From: Candidatus Blackburnbacteria bacterium RIFCSPHIGHO2_01_FULL_43_15b
GTDB taxonomy: Bacteria > Patescibacteriota > Microgenomatia > UBA8517 > UBA10165
NCBI GenBank assembly: GCA_001816385.1
Contig: MHBW01000010.1
Span: forward strand, 1 to 33,970
Direction of reading: 5' to 3'
DNA: 33,970 nt
Position 1 is the stretch's first letter, and every line of letters starts with the position of its first letter. The notes below the pieces were generated by a model that was given only the letters and a program-made list of their open reading frames with translations, ran no database searches and had not been told where the DNA came from. Of this stretch, positions 1-16,550 are shown one piece after another. The position numbers were made by a program, and so were the translations under genes.

Positions 1-27
1 AGACCCAGAAAATGTCTTGGATATTTC

Positions 28-240
28 ACTCCTTTTGAGGTATTCTTAGCTAAGTTAAATAACCAAAGGGTTGTGATTCAATCTGGAATGTAGGGTTTAT
101 CTTAAGCCCTAGAATCATAAGCACAAATATTGTAGTCAAATGCCATAATCCTCTCGGAGGGTTCTTTCGCAAGAAGGATGCAAGGCGCGATACCGTAAAA
201 AGCCGGATTCCGTGCACCCTCCACCGGGAGAGCAAGGAGT
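28..240 (+). ncRNA. candidate structured leader RNA upstream of the RT (msr/msd-like, speculative)
   Basis: No gene is seen in the first 250 bases. Three hairpins can be read directly: an 8-bp stem at 91-111 (one G-U, 5-nt loop), a 4-bp stem at 150-160, and a 5-bp stem at 162-175 with a TCGC loop. The heptamer ACTCCTT at 28-34 is complementary to AAGGAGT at 234-240, which could close the region as retron a1/a2 repeats do; a 7-bp match over this distance can also arise by chance, and the second copy doubles as a Shine-Dalgarno. Retron RTs normally have their msr-msd RNA just upstream. The RNA role is an inference and the left boundary may lie outside the window. Confidence 0.25.
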
Positions 241-250
241 CAGTTTTCGT

Positions 251-1189
251 TTGGCATCTGCCTCACAAAAACTTCTCTTCGCTCTCCCTCTTTTCTCATG
301 TTGTATGTTAAAAGAACGAGCAGATCATCATGGTAATTCTGCAGTAGAACACAGAATATTTGATGGGCGTTGGCGCAGCGTTTTTGAACCCGCCACAGAA
401 GCCGCCCGAGACAACCTGCGGAACCTAGCAACTCGAGTATCCGAATTCGTTTATTCCACACCTCAATTCCAAGAAGTATTTAAACAAAGAGCCGTCCATG
501 GCTTTGTCCCCGACAGAAGCGTCTTAACCCACGCAAAGACTCATCAAACCGCCCAAACCATTGTCCAAATGGACATCTACAGAGCCTTTGAATTCGCAAG
601 AAGAGCCCGTGTAATTACCACCCTGGACAAACTGGGGGCACCAGCCCAACTACAGCAAGAAGTCTCTGGAAAAGCATTTTTCTTTGATCTCGTACCGGCA
701 GGTTTCCCGACCTCTCCCATACTTTTTACTACAGCAATGCTTCCAGCAGATCAAGAACTAATGGATTTTGCCGCAAGACAAGGTTTTGTCTACTCTCGCG
801 ATGTTGACAACTTAGCCTTTTCCTCCCAAAGACCATGGATTAAACAAACCGAGATCGACGTCGCAAGAGAAATCCTGAAGTCACACGGATACGATACCCA
901 CAAAGTACGCGCAGAACACCCAACAACAAAGAGAGCGCTCATGTGTGGAGTTGGTATTTATAAAGGCAGACTATTGATCCCAGGAAAGACGAAAAGAAAC
1001 ATCCAATCAGGGCTTCACCACGCATTGGCCGAGGCTCCGGACAGATTTGTTGCAAAAACGGTAGGTCTGTTGGGAAGAATCATACAAGTAGAACGCCGAG
1101 TGTCAGGGAGTTTGGGTAAATACAAAGAGGCTTTCTTAACAGAACGCTATCGACAACGCCAGCAAAGACGGTGGAAAAAGAGAAAATAA
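251..1189 (+). CDS. divergent retron-like reverse transcriptase with altered YxDD box
   Basis: About 313 aa. The order of blocks matches retron reverse transcriptases: HGFVPDRSVLTHAKTH (retron NAxxH region, here HAKTH), motif A with an acidic residue in IVQMDIYRAFEF, motif B AGFPTSP (usually QGxPTSP), motif C YSRDVDNLAFS, and a C-terminal block MCGVGIYKGRLLIPGKTKR where retrons have VTG and a basic tail. Motif C aligns the usual YADD with DVDN, so the tyrosine and the last aspartate are replaced; the motif A Asp and the first motif C Asp remain. Starts are uncertain: GTG at 212, TTG at 251 (AAGGAG at 234-239, 11 nt before it) and ATG at 305 share the frame; 251 is chosen for the Shine-Dalgarno. 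The stop abuts the trpS stop with no gap. It may be inactive, or a new RT clade. Confidence 0.75.
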   Translation: MASASQKLLFALPLFSCCMLKERADHHGNSAVEHRIFDGRWRSVFEPATEAARDNLRNLATRVSEFVYSTPQFQEVFKQRAVHGFVPDRSVLTHAKTHQTAQTIVQMDIYRAFEFARRARVITTLDKLGAPAQLQQEVSGKAFFFDLVPAGFPTSPILFTTAMLPADQELMDFAARQGFVYSRDVDNLAFSSQRPWIKQTEIDVAREILKSHGYDTHKVRAEHPTTKRALMCGVGIYKGRLLIPGKTKRNIQSGLHHALAEAPDRFVAKTVGLLGRIIQVERRVSGSLGKYKEAFLTERYRQRQQRRWKKRK

Positions 1190-2173
1190 TCAAAGGAGCC
1201 CCATTACTTTTTTTACTTCGACCACGGTTTGTGAGGCAACCTTGCGGGCTTTTCCAGCACCTTCTAAAATTATACGATCCACTTTTTCTATATCAGCTTC
1301 CAGCGCGGTGCGTCTTTGCTGAATCGGTTTAAGTTCAGCAAAAATTGCTTCTGCAATCTCTGCCTTCAGGTCTCCATACCTAATCCCGCTTGTGGTGTAC
1401 TGTTCTTTTAGCTCATGCACTCTCGTGTCCCCCAGGAACAGTTCTGCAAACTTGAGCAAACTTGCTACACCACCCTCTATTGGGACGCTTTCCCCCTTGC
1501 CGCTATCAGTGGGAACTCGGGCTAATCGCTCTCTGATAGTTTCCAGACTGTCAGTTAGCAAAATTGCACTGCCTTCCACACTTTTAGCCATCTTCCCTTC
1601 TCCGGTTAAAGAAGGCACATACTCACCACTCGTTGCAAATCTTTGAGGTTCCGGCAAATTCAAACCATATCGGTCATTCATTTTTTGCGCAACCTCGCGG
1701 GCAACTTCCAAATGCGGCTCCTGATCAATTCCTACAGGCACAAGGGAGGCTTTGTAGGCCAGAATGTCAGCCGCCATCAAAACCGGGTAATATAAAAGCG
1801 CCATGTTAACGTTTTCAGGATAGCTTTTTACCTTCTCTTTAAAAGTGGGTAAATGCTGCATGCGGGCTACAGTTATAACCGTGGAGAAAAGATAAGAAAG
1901 CTCAACATGCTGGGGAACTTGAGATTGGATAAAAATTGTTGACTTTTCGGGGTCTAGCCCTGCGGAAAGATAATCCAAAACTACGTCGCGAACCGCAGCT
2001 TGGAAGTTTTCGGGGTTATACGGCACATTTATTGAATGCAAATCCGCCACCATGTAAAAAGTCTCATATGAAGGGTCCTCCTGCAAAGCCAGCATACCTT
2101 TTACGGCACCAAGATAGTTCCCCAAGTGGAGGCGTCCATTCGCACGTATTCCTGATAAAACTCGTTTTGTCAT
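1190..2173 (-). CDS. trpS: tryptophanyl-tRNA synthetase
   Basis: Charges tRNA-Trp in the cytoplasm. At 327 aa it has the usual bacterial TrpS length. The class I signature is near the N-terminus (SGIRANGRLHLGNYLG, the HIGH equivalent) and the second signature is GKMAKS (KMSKS equivalent). DIQAYKA-like and QEPHLEVAR segments typical of TrpS are present (ILAYKASLVPVGIDQEPHLEVARE). The frame is open upstream to 2227, but that extension lies in a palindromic repeat and is not TrpS-like, so the ATG at 2173 before TKRVLSGIR is the start. It is convergent with the RT gene, stop against stop. Confidence 0.96.
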   Translation of the reverse strand: MTKRVLSGIRANGRLHLGNYLGAVKGMLALQEDPSYETFYMVADLHSINVPYNPENFQAAVRDVVLDYLSAGLDPEKSTIFIQSQVPQHVELSYLFSTVITVARMQHLPTFKEKVKSYPENVNMALLYYPVLMAADILAYKASLVPVGIDQEPHLEVAREVAQKMNDRYGLNLPEPQRFATSGEYVPSLTGEGKMAKSVEGSAILLTDSLETIRERLARVPTDSGKGESVPIEGGVASLLKFAELFLGDTRVHELKEQYTTSGIRYGDLKAEIAEAIFAELKPIQQRRTALEADIEKVDRIILEGAGKARKVASQTVVEVKKVMGLL

Positions 2174-2225: not shown

Positions 2226-2310
2226 ATCTTATTTTACACAAGTTTGACGTCTTTTGTCATTTCGAGCTTAAGCGAGCACTCTCCCTCCCAAAAAAGGGTA
2301 AATTTTAGTG

Positions 2311-2316
2311 TATAAT
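2311..2316 (+). promoter_or_regulatory. -10 box, leaderless MNT/HEPN promoter
   Basis: A perfect TATAAT ends 6 nt before the ATG at 2323, so transcription would start at or next to the start codon. No Shine-Dalgarno precedes that ATG and no good -35 hexamer is visible. Confidence 0.6.
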
Positions 2317-2322
2317 CTAAAC

Positions 2323-2628
2323 ATGGTTACAAATACAAACGACATACTAAATTTAATAAATGCAAAGAAAGCTGCCATTGGCAAACTTGGCATAACAAAA
2401 GTCGGACTATTTGGCTCATTTTCTCGTGGAGATCAAAACCAAAAAAGTGACGTTGACCTGCTTGTAGAATTCGATAAAGATAAAAAAAACTACCGAAATT
2501 ATATGGGCTTTGTAAGATTGGTAGAAAACCTTTTGGGAAGAGAAGTAGAGGTTGTAACCCCAGAGTCTCTGAGTCCATACATTGCCACACATATTAAAAA
2601 AGAAGTTAAATATGTCAAAACGGCCTGA
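2323..2628 (+). CDS. MNT-type nucleotidyltransferase, antitoxin partner of HEPN
   Basis: 101 aa with the minimal nucleotidyltransferase signature VGLFGSFSRGDQNQKSDVDLLVEF near residues 27-50: GSFSRG, then the metal-binding pair D43/D45 in SDVD. In HEPN-MNT modules the MNT protein neutralises the HEPN RNase, in studied cases by AMPylating it. The next gene starts 17 bp inside this one, the normal arrangement. The frame extends to a GTG at 2308, but the -10 box at 2311-2316 makes the ATG at 2323 the likely start, on a leaderless mRNA. Family assignment is firm; AMPylation activity is inferred. Confidence 0.88.
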   Translation: MVTNTNDILNLINAKKAAIGKLGITKVGLFGSFSRGDQNQKSDVDLLVEFDKDKKNYRNYMGFVRLVENLLGREVEVVTPESLSPYIATHIKKEVKYVKTA

Positions 2629-2946
2629 AGAATATTTGAAACATATTTTGGATGAGATCGAGTATCTACTAAAATCTTCCAAAGATATTAACGAAGACAG
2701 GTTCATGGATGACGAAACACTACAAAGGGCATATTCAAGAAGTCTTGAAATCATTGGTGAAGCCACAAAGAAGTTGTCAAAGAATTTACCGACAGACACC
2801 CTCAAATAGACTGGAGTTTAATGGCTGGCATGAGAGATAAACTTATACATCACTATTTTGGCGTTGATTATGCCATTGTTTGGGACGTTATAAAAAACGA
2901 GATCCCTAAACTCAAGCCTCAAATAAAAAGCCTTATTAATTCTTAA
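2612..2946 (+). pseudogene. HEPN toxin, frameshifted
   Basis: The ATG frame reads MSKRPEEYLKHILDEIEYL... to KNLPTDTLK and stops at 2807-2809. One frame over, from about 2797, the sequence continues HPQIDWSLMAGMRDKLIHHYFGVDYAIVWDVI to a stop at 2944-2946. That second part holds the HEPN catalytic Rx4-6H motif (RDKLIH). Adding one base near 2790-2797 would give a normal HEPN protein of about 111 aa. As written, the first frame makes a truncated product of 65 residues that ends before the catalytic Arg-His. Possible explanations are a true inactivating deletion, a programmed shift, or a sequencing error; the first is favoured because other toxins here are also broken. Confidence 0.8.
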
Positions 2947-3042: not shown

Positions 3043-3071
3043 AGTATACCAAATTAGGCATCACTCATCAA
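3043..3071 (-). promoter_or_regulatory. promoter of the CAT tRNA
   Basis: On the minus strand TTGATG (3071-3066), a 17-nt spacer and TATACT (3048-3043) precede the tRNA by about 18 nt. The -35 lies inside the 3' end of the neighbouring PIN gene. Confidence 0.55.
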
Positions 3072-3483
3072 TTCCGAAACGCTTAAAACCATTCTTTTTG
3101 TAATGCTTGTCGAAACTGAATATGGTATCAATCCTCTCGCGCTTCATAACTGCCATATTTATACAGTCTGTAAAACGAGTGTTTTTAGATGTTTGTCTCT
3201 TGAGAATGTCGAGGCCCGCACGTCTCAAAACTGAATCCACCTCTACAATTTCTGCCGAACTAGCAAGGGTTCTTTCCGCAAATAAAATAGCCTTTTCTAA
3301 GCTTGTGTCTTGGGATATAACAGTTAGAGCCTCACCAAAAGCGGGATCTGAGATTATTACTTTCACACCCCTTCCATCTATTTCCCCACCTAATTTTTCC
3401 GCTATTGCATGACTCGGGTCATCCGGATTAACTAATGCGACCATTGCATCCGCATCAATAAGAATTTTATTTGGCACTTTCAT
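3061..3483 (-). CDS. PIN-domain RNase toxin (VapC-like)
   Basis: 140 aa with the four acidic residues expected of a PIN nuclease: D10 in ILIDADAMV, E51 in FGEALTV, D106 in RFTDCINMAV and D125 in FSFDKHY. PIN toxins cut RNA using metal held by these residues. The gene starts 17 bp inside the upstream RHH-like gene, as in most VapBC-type operons, so both are made from one mRNA. The reading frame and all catalytic positions are intact. The RNA target cannot be told from sequence. Confidence 0.87.
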   Translation of the reverse strand: MKVPNKILIDADAMVALVNPDDPSHAIAEKLGGEIDGRGVKVIISDPAFGEALTVISQDTSLEKAILFAERTLASSAEIVEVDSVLRRAGLDILKRQTSKNTRFTDCINMAVMKRERIDTIFSFDKHYKKNGFKRFGIDE

Positions 3484-3787
3484 TAACGAACTTGTTTATA
3501 TGTTCTATCTCTTTTTTGGTCAAACGAGGCTTATTCTTGCCATAATTCGGAGACTTATCGCCATAGAGATAGTCAAACATGTTGGTGGAAAGGTCTTTTG
3601 GGCCTCTTGCCCCAATAGCTGCTAAATCAAGCAAGAAAGTGCCGGCATTTTCTATCGGTGTTTCCATCTTCAATCCAGCCGCCAAAAATTCTCGTATAAG
3701 CTGAGCTTCACGCTTCCCTTCTTTCCGGGCAGCAATTTCAAGCTCTCTGTCCATTTCAGGGGGTATGTATAACTGTTTCCTGATCAT
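3467..3787 (-). CDS. RHH-type antitoxin of the PIN module
   Basis: 106 aa. The N-terminus RKQLYIPPEMDRELEIAARKEGKREAQLIREFLAAGL has the strand plus two helices of ribbon-helix-helix (CopG/Arc) DNA-binding proteins. The remaining charged tail (GDKSPNYGKNKPRLTKKEIEHINKF) would bind and cover the toxin. It is first in the operon and overlaps the toxin start. The ATG follows a run of three TATAAT boxes 7 bp apart, so this protein probably represses its own promoter there. Confidence 0.8.
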   Translation of the reverse strand: MIRKQLYIPPEMDRELEIAARKEGKREAQLIREFLAAGLKMETPIENAGTFLLDLAAIGARGPKDLSTNMFDYLYGDKSPNYGKNKPRLTKKEIEHINKFVNESAK

Positions 3788-11435: not shown

Positions 11436-14400
11436 TTAACATTTTGAAAATCCACAAGCCGGGTTGGAACATTTTTTACAACCTTCAATAACCATTAAGG
11501 CAGATCCGCAATCAGGGCAGGCGGCAAACATTGATTGGTAAGATTGTAAGGCCGAATAGTTGAATACATCTGTAGTTTCGGAATGTCCATTCCCATTTTC
11601 CATGCCAGAAGCATAAGCTCCCGGTTTAACAGCTGTGTCTGTCGTATTATTTTCTTCCAAAGGTAATTGTCTATTAAGCGAAGTTTCAAGAATCGCTTTG
11701 CCGGCTGCATCAAACATAGACAAAATCGCCATGGGTCCAATTCCATAAGGTGTTCCGCAAGCAATCCCAATAAGTTCTGAAGCAACCTCCTCCAAAGAAG
11801 CCCCGTGTTTTAGAGCCAAAGAGGCCAGTCTTCCGGTTACTTCTGCGGCTCCGGCCACATAACCCCCAGATTTTCCAACCGTCACAAAGACTTCAACAGG
11901 CATCCCTTCGTCCGTATTAAATACGGCGGTGTAAACATTGCCCACATCGCTTTTTTTCTTAATTCTGACTCCCCAAGCCTCAGTTGGAGCCTTGACCGGA
12001 CCTAAAACTAAAGGTGTGGGAGCAGCCAGTTGGTCATAGTAGGATTTGTCTTTTTTGACCTCCAAAACCTGCTTTACCCGCGAACCATCCCTGTAAATTG
12101 TAATTCCCTTACAACCCATCTCGTAAACCATCATATAAGCCTGCCTTACCTCCCCTACCGTTGCGGCATTGGGGAAATTGATAGTCTTGGAAATAGCGTT
12201 ATCAACATGCTTTTGGAAAGCTGCCTGCATACGAACGTGCCATTCGGGGCTAATATCCTTTGTGACCACGAAAACTGCCTGCCATTTTTGGGGAACTTCT
12301 GACAAGCCTTGCACAGATCCACCGTTTTGCTCAATTTTTTCCAAAAGTTTGTCGAAATAAAAACCTTCATCCTTAGCAATTTTTAAGAAAAACGGATTAG
12401 TTGTAAAAAGCCTTTTGCCTTCAATGGTATTTTTGGCATACGAAAGTCCAAAATAGGGCTCAATGCCCGAGGAGGCATCGGCAAGCATGGCAATTGTCCC
12501 AGTTGGAGCAATGGTAGTTATTGCACCGTTTCTTACCTTTAGCTCAGTACCCAAAAAATGAGGACTTTGGGGATCATAAATTGAACCCTCCCAAGACGGA
12601 AATACCCCTCTTGTGTCTGCCAACCTTGCACTTGCCTCCTTAGCGTGTTTGTGTACAAAAGACATAACGTCTTCGGCAACTGCTAATCCTTCTTCAGAGT
12701 TATAGCCTATCCCCAGCTGTACCAAAAGATCAGCAAAGCCCATCAGTCCCAATCCGATTCTTCTGATTTTGTGCGCCATCTCGCGTATCTCAGGAATTGG
12801 ATAGCTGTTCATGTCCAATACATTATCCAAAAAGTGCACCGCTTCTTCTGCTGCCAGAGCCAGTCCTTCGTAATCTATCGTTCCATCTTTAACAAATTTA
12901 CCAACATTAATAGAACCTAAAGTACAGGAATCGTACGGCAAAAGTGGTTGCTCTCCGCATTGATGCACTATAAGCCCATTTGCAATAACTGAATGGCTCA
13001 TTGGCTCAGTCACGTCATACACTCTCTCTTTACCACACTCCTCGACACTAGTTACAACATCTAGAAACGGATTTTTTAGTTTTCTTATCGTGTGAAGGTT
13101 GAGTTCCTTGAGTCTTGTTTGTTTAGATTTGTTTATAAAACCTATCTCAGTTTTGAATTTTTCCCTCGAAGCACTAAAAATACCCAACTCATAAAGTATC
13201 CCATCAGTACTGTAAGTCCTTATACTCCCATCTTTAGCTTGATAAGGGAACATCCCCGTTCTTAGTTTTCTACGTCTATCAAAAATACTACTTTTAATCC
13301 CTAAATTGAGGAGGAGGAGTTGTACTCCTTGAAGCAACTTCTTACTTTTTGAAGTTAACGCAACCCAATCACTATTAGTTTTTGTGTTACCACCCCTAAC
13401 TGTCCCATCAGCCGAAAAGAGTCCTTGGATAAAACCAACAACCGCCTCTTCCGGAGCTGTATATATTGATTCCGGCACTACTTTATCAGATGCTTTAAGT
13501 GGTTTTACTCCTAACTGCATGAAGAAATCAACAAGTACCTTACTGTGATAAGAAAGATGGTAAGTATTTCGTTCTCTCTTTACAAACTTGATATCTTTAC
13601 CATACCAATTATTAATAATTTTTTGGAAATACTCTAGGACTTCCCTGTCATCTTCTCCAAATGTAAATCCTACTCGTAAGTTTTCATCACCGTCTCTCAA
13701 CCACCCGTCACCTATCAACCAACCAAGTATTTGTCCCAATTCTTTACTCCATCGAATTGGCAAGTTAACACCCCTCGCCTGAACCGGTAAATCATAGTTT
13801 TGGCCAAAATCTCCCTTCCCGCTTTGAATTAATACTTTATCTCCAGACTTCAAATTTTTCAGTTCCACCCAACCAGAAGGTGCCAATACTCTATGGTTAG
13901 CTGTTGCTTTTAGCTCCAAACCAGTTTTAGTTACTAATTTAAGTACGTCTCTAATACCTACATCATAAAATTTAATAGCGCTACTGGCCATGGTTCCACT
14001 TTCATTTGGATCCAAAGTTCTCTTATCTATAATTAAAGACATGTTTCCACCATAACGTTTACCGCCTGCAAAATGGCTCACCACCACATCTTTCATTGTT
14101 ACTAACCCTTCTTGGGTAGATATTAAAGTATCACCCGTAACGCAAGGGTTAGTAGCCTCAATCTGACCTAAAGCGGGAGTCGGGTTGGCACCGGATTTAT
14201 TTATCCTGTCAATCATAATCATGCCCGGATCTCCATAATGCCAAGCCAGTTGGGTAATTAATAAAAAGACTTTGTGGGCATTGAGGCGATCTGCTACTTC
14301 TCCCGTCCGGGGATTAATAAGCTCGTAGCCTTCACCATCCTCCGTGGCACGAACCAAATCGTAAAGTTTGGCTACACCTTCCTCTACTTTTTTTAATTTA

Positions 14401-16550
14401 AGATCAACATCACGAATAGCTTGGGCCGCTTTTATCTCGTTAATTACTTCTTCCCACTCCGGCTCACTTTTAACAAACTTTTCATCCTTCTTGGCCTGCT
14501 CCATCCATTCCTCTATAACCGTTACAGAAATATTAAAGTTAGTTAAGCTAAATTCGTCTACCTTCATGACCGCAAAACGCAAAATGTCAGGGTGAGTTAT
14601 GTGCATAATGCCCATATTGGCTCCGCGCCTAACTCCACCCTGCTTAACTTGCGACGTGACATCGTTATACGCTTGCAAAAAAGAACACGGACCAACAGTA
14701 GTTCCACCAGAGGAAGCAATGACGTCCCCATACGGGCGCAGCCTTGAGAAAGAAAAGCCCGTATTGTGAATCATCACTAGCCCCGACTGACCTGCAGCAT
14801 AAGTGTTCCAATCCCCAACTGATAAGTCATAATAAGTTTTGGCAATTTTTGCTTTGCTAATTGTCCTAACCTCTTGACCGGAATTTGCTATTCGTTCCAG
14901 TAGTGAAGCTGAACTCTTGTCTTTTTTGGAAAGATGTTTAGCAATTACAGCAATATCGCCACGCCTAACTCGATTATGAGATGCCCAAATTGATAACTCT
15001 GCAGCAAATATACCTTTCTTCTTTGCTCCTCTAGGAGAAGATAACCCTGCACTCACCAATTTATCCCTCCACAAGCAGAAGTTTAAAGGTAAAGATGTTT
15101 GCTTTCGGGAGGAGCTTTGCAATCTACTCTGACGCAATTTATTCGCCAGATAAGGAGCCAAGTCTACTGCTAGTTGGTTAACTTGAGGCAAGGGGCAAAT
15201 TTGTAGAATATACGTCGGACGCTTTCCCTTTCCGTAAGGATCTTTCTCTTTAAGCGATGTCCGATAACCCAAAAGCGAAACGAGGGCTGATAAATCCTCC
15301 GCCATGGCCCGAGAAACACTGCAATAAGAGGGGCTGCCATCAACAGCTACATAGCCGTCACTATCTACAAGACCCGCCAAGAAAGCTTTAACCACCTTAA
15401 TTGGCGATTTACCAATTATCTCCGGCACTCTGATTAAAGTATCTTTGGGGCCAAACTTCTCCAATCCACAGATTGCTAAAAGGCGGTGGACAAATTTTTG
15501 GTTTAAAGTACTTACACTGAAAAGCCCCCTGCGATCCTTTTGGATTGAGACTCTGATACCTTGTTTGGCAAGCACGCTTTGGACCTTCTCTAGAACATCC
15601 TTAGTGCCGCTAAACCATCTGACTCGGTATTGTCTTAATGCTTTAACATAACCGAAAGATCCATCCCCCAAAGTAAAACCAACCAACCACCCTAAATCTG
15701 AGTCTATTTTTACTCCTCCCACACTCTTTAATTTTTTCCAAGGCCAGTACCTTTCTGCTTTACCTGGACCCAAAACAATATCACCAGGAGTAAGTCTGTC
15801 CGCTCTTACTTCAACCATACTTGTTCCCCTTAAAACCATAAAAGGATGCCAGGCACTGGTTTGCACTCGTGTTCCCTCAACTGTAGTTACTATTAATTGA
15901 TCTTCTGCCGGCACGTTATATTTCCAAACATGGGTTACTTTCTGCAACCCCGCTTCACCGGTTTTAGGGTTCATCGATACCGTCTTAATATTTAAATCAC
16001 CAACATCATAGGCAATTCCCGCTCCTTGAGTAAGGCCTTTTCTGCCATCAGCCGTAGCTCTGGAAAATAAAACCTCAATGGGCTCAATACCACAAAAAGT
16101 GCTCCAAACTCTGGCGTCTCCTGAAATACAACCCCCGCCCGACTTATGAATCAAAACCATATCAACCAAAGTTTTGCCGATACTGGCCATTGTGTCCTCT
16201 ACCGGCAGCACAAAGCAGGCTGAAAGCTGCTGCATAGGTTTCCCCGCATTAAGCATGGTTGGGGTGTTGGGAATAAATCTTTGCGAGGAGAGTAATTTAT
16301 AAAAGGACTCTGCTCGTACCATCACCTGAGACTGGTCTACACCATATAAAAGCTCAGCCGTGCTGATGTTGTAGGCAACGCGCCAAAACATCTCGCGAGC
16401 TGTCTCTTCCGGCTGTCCCTTCTCGTTCCGGCGCGCATAGCGGGTCTTGGCAATATACAAAGCCGTCTCGGATAGCTGTGGCTCCGGCAAGCGCTCCGGA
16501 ACAGGTGGAATTTGAAAGCCAATTTTTAAGATCTCTTCAGTTGTTTTCAT
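11436..16550 (-). CDS. nrdJ: class II (B12-dependent) ribonucleotide reductase with two inteins
   Basis: 1704 aa precursor; removing two inteins leaves 853 aa, normal for large NrdJ. It reduces ribonucleotides using adenosylcobalamin. Host landmarks: SACFVLPVED (C112, redox Cys), KSGGG|TGFSFSRLR, NP|CGEQPLLPYDSCTLGSINV (C1198 radical Cys, C1209 second redox Cys), a TSCPD-type domain (about 1528-1600) and a C-terminal zinc-ribbon-like tail CPDCGSALMVIEGCKKC. Both inteins fall at conserved active-site segments. The ATG at 16550 has no clear Shine-Dalgarno. A weak promoter (TTGACA at 16649-16644) lies upstream. PduO follows on the same strand. Confidence 0.95.
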   Translation of the reverse strand: MKTTEEILKIGFQIPPVPERLPEPQLSETALYIAKTRYARRNEKGQPEETAREMFWRVAYNISTAELLYGVDQSQVMVRAESFYKLLSSQRFIPNTPTMLNAGKPMQQLSACFVLPVEDTMASIGKTLVDMVLIHKSGGGCISGDARVWSTFCGIEPIEVLFSRATADGRKGLTQGAGIAYDVGDLNIKTVSMNPKTGEAGLQKVTHVWKYNVPAEDQLIVTTVEGTRVQTSAWHPFMVLRGTSMVEVRADRLTPGDIVLGPGKAERYWPWKKLKSVGGVKIDSDLGWLVGFTLGDGSFGYVKALRQYRVRWFSGTKDVLEKVQSVLAKQGIRVSIQKDRRGLFSVSTLNQKFVHRLLAICGLEKFGPKDTLIRVPEIIGKSPIKVVKAFLAGLVDSDGYVAVDGSPSYCSVSRAMAEDLSALVSLLGYRTSLKEKDPYGKGKRPTYILQICPLPQVNQLAVDLAPYLANKLRQSRLQSSSRKQTSLPLNFCLWRDKLVSAGLSSPRGAKKKGIFAAELSIWASHNRVRRGDIAVIAKHLSKKDKSSASLLERIANSGQEVRTISKAKIAKTYYDLSVGDWNTYAAGQSGLVMIHNTGFSFSRLRPYGDVIASSGGTTVGPCSFLQAYNDVTSQVKQGGVRRGANMGIMHITHPDILRFAVMKVDEFSLTNFNISVTVIEEWMEQAKKDEKFVKSEPEWEEVINEIKAAQAIRDVDLKLKKVEEGVAKLYDLVRATEDGEGYELINPRTGEVADRLNAHKVFLLITQLAWHYGDPGMIMIDRINKSGANPTPALGQIEATNPCVTGDTLISTQEGLVTMKDVVVSHFAGGKRYGGNMSLIIDKRTLDPNESGTMASSAIKFYDVGIRDVLKLVTKTGLELKATANHRVLAPSGWVELKNLKSGDKVLIQSGKGDFGQNYDLPVQARGVNLPIRWSKELGQILGWLIGDGWLRDGDENLRVGFTFGEDDREVLEYFQKIINNWYGKDIKFVKRERNTYHLSYHSKVLVDFFMQLGVKPLKASDKVVPESIYTAPEEAVVGFIQGLFSADGTVRGGNTKTNSDWVALTSKSKKLLQGVQLLLLNLGIKSSIFDRRRKLRTGMFPYQAKDGSIRTYSTDGILYELGIFSASREKFKTEIGFINKSKQTRLKELNLHTIRKLKNPFLDVVTSVEECGKERVYDVTEPMSHSVIANGLIVHQCGEQPLLPYDSCTLGSINVGKFVKDGTIDYEGLALAAEEAVHFLDNVLDMNSYPIPEIREMAHKIRRIGLGLMGFADLLVQLGIGYNSEEGLAVAEDVMSFVHKHAKEASARLADTRGVFPSWEGSIYDPQSPHFLGTELKVRNGAITTIAPTGTIAMLADASSGIEPYFGLSYAKNTIEGKRLFTTNPFFLKIAKDEGFYFDKLLEKIEQNGGSVQGLSEVPQKWQAVFVVTKDISPEWHVRMQAAFQKHVDNAISKTINFPNAATVGEVRQAYMMVYEMGCKGITIYRDGSRVKQVLEVKKDKSYYDQLAAPTPLVLGPVKAPTEAWGVRIKKKSDVGNVYTAVFNTDEGMPVEVFVTVGKSGGYVAGAAEVTGRLASLALKHGASLEEVASELIGIACGTPYGIGPMAILSMFDAAGKAILETSLNRQLPLEENNTTDTAVKPGAYASGMENGNGHSETTDVFNYSALQSYQSMFAACPDCGSALMVIEGCKKCSNPACGFSKC
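12960..14144 (-). other. intein 2 in NrdJ, ending in Gln
   Basis: Residues 803-1197 (395 aa), between NP and CGEQP. It starts CVTGDTLIST, has block B TANHRVLA, endonuclease motifs LGWLIGDG and IQGLFSADG, and ends LIVHQ with Cys as +1. The terminal residue is Gln instead of the usual Asn. Junction codons were checked (TGC at 14144, CAA at 12960). The +1 Cys is also the radical cysteine of the reductase, so unspliced precursor cannot be active. Confidence 0.92.
14763..16130 (-). other. intein 1 in NrdJ, with LAGLIDADG endonuclease
   Basis: Residues 141-596 (456 aa), between GGG and TGFSFS. It starts CISGDARVW, has a block B-like TSAWHPF, endonuclease motifs WLVGFTLGDG and FLAGLVDSDG, a basic helical DNA-binding stretch, and ends VMIHN with Thr as the +1 extein residue. 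Both junctions were checked at codon level (TGT at 16130, AAT at 14763). All residues needed for splicing and both endonuclease motifs are present, so splicing and homing look possible. Confidence 0.93.

Follow-up and report, generated by a model that had tools for sequence, protein, structure and literature searches.

A retron-type reverse transcriptase with Asn in place of the last motif C Asp, and a predicted upstream RNA, in a Candidatus Blackburnbacteria genome and its candidate phyla radiation relatives

To our knowledge, reverse transcriptases (RTs) are regarded as sharing, almost without exception, an active site with three Asp. The closest described systems are the retrons, whose RTs carry a motif C tetrad given as YADD, with YCDD as an altered core; in region X, the Asn is absent in two of 16 validated retron RTs (PMC6868368). 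When both Asp of the tetrad were changed in retron Eco8 (YAAA), defence was abolished (PMC12887533). In the Ty1 RT, the mutant D211N still polymerises in vitro, with kpol reduced 223-fold and a preference for Mn, while its transposition is lost in vivo and either of the other catalytic Asp is essential (PMC2148107). Among viral RNA-dependent RNA polymerases (RdRps), GDN is found in about 5% (PMC9125799). No YADN retron was found described in the literature searched, which consisted of open-licence papers only.

The window, that is, the whole stretch of DNA analysed, comprises positions 1-33,970 of contig MHBW01000010.1 (assembly GCA_001816385.1) from Candidatus Blackburnbacteria bacterium RIFCSPHIGHO2_01_FULL_43_15b, whose genome is very small. 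The features considered here all lie near its beginning:

156..222, + strand: predicted RNA domain, stem GGAGGGU/ACCCUCC around two hairpins (fold of 148-304, z -5.2)
226..288, + strand: predicted RNA hairpin, long and imperfect, lying between the preceding domain and the start of the RT (z -6.7 for the fold of 222-304)
305..1189, + strand: retron-type reverse transcriptase, 294 amino acids (profiles, fold match, coding signal)
530..544, + strand: region X, HAKTH where most retron RTs have NAXXH (translation; definition in PMC6868368)
566..589, + strand: motif A, QMDIYRAF, catalytic Asp kept at 572-574 (translation, alignments)
692..718, + strand: motif B, VPAGFPTSP, Ala in place of Gln (translation, alignment)
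791..811, + strand: motif C, YSRDVDN where YTRYADD is expected (sequence, alignments)
941..949, + strand: MCG where VTG opens region Y (translation; definition in PMC6868368)

The reading frame of the RT is open already from 149, and a sequence-only reading of this DNA had placed the start at TTG 251. With a codon-usage model trained on 100 genes from the same genome, the coding signal is 0.149 bits per codon over 305-1186, and the coding-like usage is best around motif C; the segment 149-304 scores -0.07 bits per codon, a value equally low in only 0.4% of gene segments of the same length. Since no coding signal is seen in 149-304, and this stretch, which includes the hairpin at 226-288, has a strong predicted RNA fold, ATG 305, which follows the structured RNA, is probably a better start than TTG 251. 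The 294 codons contain no stop, whereas a random frame of that length should have 15 (P 2e-7).

The open reading frame and all the motifs named in the sequence-only reading were present. Two of the three catalytic acids are left: in numbering from ATG 305, D90 and D168 are the retained Asp, and Asn 169 is the replaced acid. In codons of motif C, Tyr is changed to Asp at 800-802, the first Asp is kept at 806-808, and the last Asp has become Asn (AAC) at 809-811. The residue D197, put forward earlier as a possible substitute for the missing acid, is the first D of DVDN when counted from GTG 212; the acid that is missing is the last of motif C. In place of the features by which retron RTs are defined, the protein thus reads DVDN for the YADD-type tetrad with two Asp, HAKTH for the NAXXH of region X, and MCG for the VTG that opens region Y. 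The same genome holds a second RT (L073 79-786, at the start of contig C1), which has GLPLGNVTSQ and RYCDDF, with both Asp intact in a YCDD, and which we take to be DGR-like by its motifs.

Profiles and folds both place the window RT with the retron RTs. The PADLOC profiles RT_III-A and RT_II-A match it at 1e-25 and 2e-22, the NCBIfam model for retron St85 at 7e-24, yet below that model's cut-off, and Pfam RVT_1 at 1e-10. Its closest solved relatives by sequence are the Ec86 RT (2e-8) and other retron RTs. The AlphaFold model has a mean pLDDT of 75, with a good palm and a poor C-terminal part; against the PDB, retron RTs occupy ranks 1-16, followed by DRT2, G2L4, group II and DGR enzymes. The model of a YADN relative from Woykebacteria (L054, pLDDT 85) gives the same order, with retrons at ranks 1-18. 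By its best profile and fold matches, therefore, the window RT is of retron type, as had been proposed from its motifs, and this kinship is far beyond chance. A DGR or group II origin finds no support in the profiles and folds, which rank retron RTs first.

Relatives sharing the Asn were found outside the immediate taxonomic neighbourhood. The five remaining genomes of its GTDB family yielded no relative, and its order (57 genomes) yielded just one further match, a retron RT that retains the two Asp of motif C. At class level, L003 and L004 (32% identity) were the top two matches, and each has YTRYADN; in a sample of the phylum, L011, L018 and L019 read YADN, L013 FVDN and L021 FADN, and the more distant L029 reads YVDN. 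A DNA pattern with fixed spacing (motif B, 24 residues, Y-x-R-x-[AV]-D-N) was run on one genome per species for 84,980 species. It returned eight matches, all of them in the candidate phyla radiation (CPR), although this restriction holds for the pattern alone, which is narrow and undercounts (L013 is excluded by design and L004 was not returned). The matches lie in Woykebacteria, Berkelbacteria, CPR2, Paceibacterota, Portnoybacteria, Falkowbacteria and Patescibacteria AMAZON01, and the contig of the eighth matches L019 of the CPR phylum sample. In viral contigs, the DN pattern had one match, as against at least 120 when DN was replaced by DD. Scans of the genome and viral collections with single proteins gave no matches.

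In a tree built with the motif C columns omitted, and with DGR and intron RTs left out, the window RT groups with nine CPR RTs that end motif C in Asp-Asn, here written xxDN (L003, L004, L011, L013, L018, L019, L021, L053 and L056). By its Asp-Asn and its tree membership it belongs to what we define here as the CPR xxDN RT group. Support for the group is 86/35 in the full set; with nine other distant rows omitted, it is 88/72 (not starred), and the group appears in 87% of bootstrap trees. The placement of the window RT with these nine is not firm because of its very long branch, the longest (2.9) in the reduced-set tree and near the longest in the full-set tree. Four sequences, L029, L055, L047 and L048, fall outside the group; two of these are viral contigs with YADN RTs (L047 1-924 and L048 4950-5882), and the Asn thus occurs in other RT lineages too. 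A single origin of all DN RTs was rejected, since five switches between DN and DD are required on the tree, at least three of them forced by starred branches; therefore, the state has changed more than once.

Because nine CPR relatives keep the same Asp to Asn swap, xxDN has the look of a variant that is being maintained rather than of a gene that has broken. Motif C in the nearest relatives is YADN, FADN or FVDN and not YADD, so that for the group as a whole an ordinary YADD retron that has mutated alone or decayed was rejected; the refuting outcome named in the sequence-only reading, close homologues with intact YADD beside a single mutated copy, was not observed. It could still be that the group is functional and that only the window copy is decaying in its own genome. 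This copy is the most derived member, without the motif B Gln, the motif C Tyr, the N-terminal helices and the RNA hairpin that the group shares upstream, and its branch length is what decay might produce. However, its frame has stayed uninterrupted over that very long branch, its codon usage is coding-like, most of all around motif C, and both Asp and the Asn are retained, all of which make decay of this copy improbable.

The group is under purifying selection, as seen in two syntenic pairs. For L062 and L049, which are the genes of L018 and L019 and whose surrounding gene order is shared by the two genomes, pN is 0.34 against a saturated pS of 0.78; for L054 and L058, pN is 0.44 against a pS of 0.79. 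Across the alignments of the group, the motif A Asp, the first motif C Asp, the Asn and the motif D Lys are invariant, as is G-x-x-S-P in motif B. Among the aligned RTs, the last position of motif C is only ever Asp or Asn. This last fact speaks against plain loss of the acid, because loss should give other residues too. One may ask whether the group's RT has ceased to polymerise and has become a retron-derived, RNA-binding scaffold that works through binding, as a regulator might. One of the three catalytic acids is missing in the whole group, the window RT has lost Gln and Tyr from its active site as well, and solitary genes are held beside housekeeping genes in both syntenic pairs. Nevertheless, mere loss of catalysis would not predict the invariance of the other two Asp, the motif D Lys and the motif B residues, nor a substitute that is always Asn, and we regard a scaffold as unlikely, though as the most serious of the rival explanations. 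Both outcomes had been raised from the sequence alone: the new active-site variant is borne out by the nine relatives in one tree group, and the non-catalytic RT is less likely for the group, given the conservation of its other catalytic residues.

Structured RNA is predicted upstream of several members. In L054 and L058, the RNA immediately ahead of the RT has hairpins enclosed by complementary ends (z -4.9 and -5.2). The msr-msd RNA of a retron has complementary ends, a1/a2, and a priming G. Such ends are clear in the relatives L062 and L049, whose closing stems (15 and 17 pairs) were reached by none of 60 shuffles and differ from each other by compensating changes; the closing stem of L054 was reached by one of 60. 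For the majority of the remaining members, the RNA ends are not significant individually. The window domain at 156..222 may be a counterpart of the a1/a2 domain, which is a possible assignment for a fold that is not significant alone and is not confirmed by relatives; no clear a1/a2 pair or priming G emerged there. Several members can be read as having a further hairpin between RNA and RT start, placed like that at 226-288. MAFFT alignment of the whole upstream RNAs was unusable. Comparison with Rfam identified no known family, either for the window or for five related loci, and a terminator scan of window positions 1-1300 found none.

A hairpin of the form GNCAG-loop-CUGNC recurs upstream of the RTs of the group. 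In a fixed pattern drawn up after inspection of the same sequences, it is present in seven of nine members and in L029, with variant forms in L004 and L019, and the pattern has no match for any DD RT in the set. Its covariation score exceeds those of all 500 shuffles, and a model built from five members recovered only one of five others. When the phylum was scanned with a model of the hairpin, four matches were DN loci, among them the three strongest; four weak extra matches showed no RT alongside. It would be unsafe to call the hairpin exclusive to DN enzymes, as the YADD RT L012 has a weak upstream copy. The hairpin was not found upstream of the window RT.

Retrons are antiphage systems in other bacteria, as the sequence-only reading noted, and if the locus were an ordinary antiphage retron, its effector would be unrecognised or encoded elsewhere. 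The retron RT family and an RNA that precedes the RT are what such a system would show. However, nothing found links the locus to phage defence: the ten loci have no gene family in common except the housekeeping-type neighbours of the two syntenic pairs, with one weak neighbour match between L053 and L056, and the RT has neither a shared neighbour nor a fused domain that could serve as effector. No effector was recognised near the window RT, where the upstream side is seen only to the contig end. An ordinary antiphage retron is thus very improbable here.

Neighbouring genes were named by eye. Downstream of the RT, an MntA-like nucleotidyltransferase ORF is followed by a HEPN-like ORF (RDKLIHHYFG) split over two frames (window 2308-2946, +), possibly a broken toxin-antitoxin pair, and a PIN-like ORF with a small preceding ORF appears VapBC-like (window 3061-3787, -). 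A ribonucleotide-reductase-like ORF of 1704 amino acids (window 11436-16550, -) holds two in-frame intein-like stretches, CISGDARVW...HNTGFSF and CVTGDTLIST...HQCGEQPL. In a CPR genome of the same order, a type VI-like retron RT (PADLOC RT_VI 6e-72) is encoded together with a transposase-like gene and a small HTH-like one (L002 19-2696).

Overall, we give somewhat better than an even chance to the reading that the window RT is an RNA-bound, slow polymerase with two acids and an Asn in its active site, part of a solitary retron-type unit. Such a unit would consist of the structured RNA (about 156-288) and, immediately after it, the RT (305-1186), an enzyme of the CPR group with Asn for the last motif C Asp; no effector is recognisable. 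The RT would bind its own upstream RNA, the two remaining Asp and the Asn would hold the metal ions, and synthesis would be slow, perhaps Mn-preferring, with a short stretch of the unit's own RNA copied into a short product. Comparison with Ty1 RT D211N suggests that RTs of the xxDN group are probably slow but active. The activity of the window RT itself may be weak, as judged from its residues and RNA (Tyr to Asp, Gln to Ala, N-terminal helices absent, RNA changed), which makes it the weakest activity candidate in the group. More tentatively, the unit may be an effector-free RNA-protein pair derived from a retron, in which the RT was rebuilt for a job other than defence and possibly makes no ordinary cDNA; if so, a CPR RNA-protein pair stays at fixed places in related genomes.

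The locus is read as belonging to a CPR lineage of solitary retron-type RTs, each with an RNA and a two-acid-plus-Asn active site. A natural Asp-Asp-Asn lineage across several CPR groups would make the role of the third acid testable on native enzymes, and it points to retron-type elements that persist in very small genomes although no effector can be recognised.

Among known systems, the retron RTs Ec86/Eco1, Ec67/Eco2, St85 and Eco8 are relatives of the window RT in sequence and fold. In retrons, an RNA element lies directly upstream of the RT gene, as it does at the window locus, and the positions of regions X and Y are present in altered form. Unlike retron RTs, the window RT combines DVDN, HAKTH and MCG with the absence of the motif B Gln, and no effector was found. 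The viral RdRps with GDN have Asp-Asn in the matching motif and the same palm fold as the xxDN RTs; they belong to RNA viruses, and the homology is limited to the palm. The Ty1 mutant D211N carries the same change, the second Asp of YXDD to Asn, with the other two Asp kept; however, it is a laboratory mutant of an unrelated RT, whereas the Asn of the xxDN enzymes is natural and common to the group.
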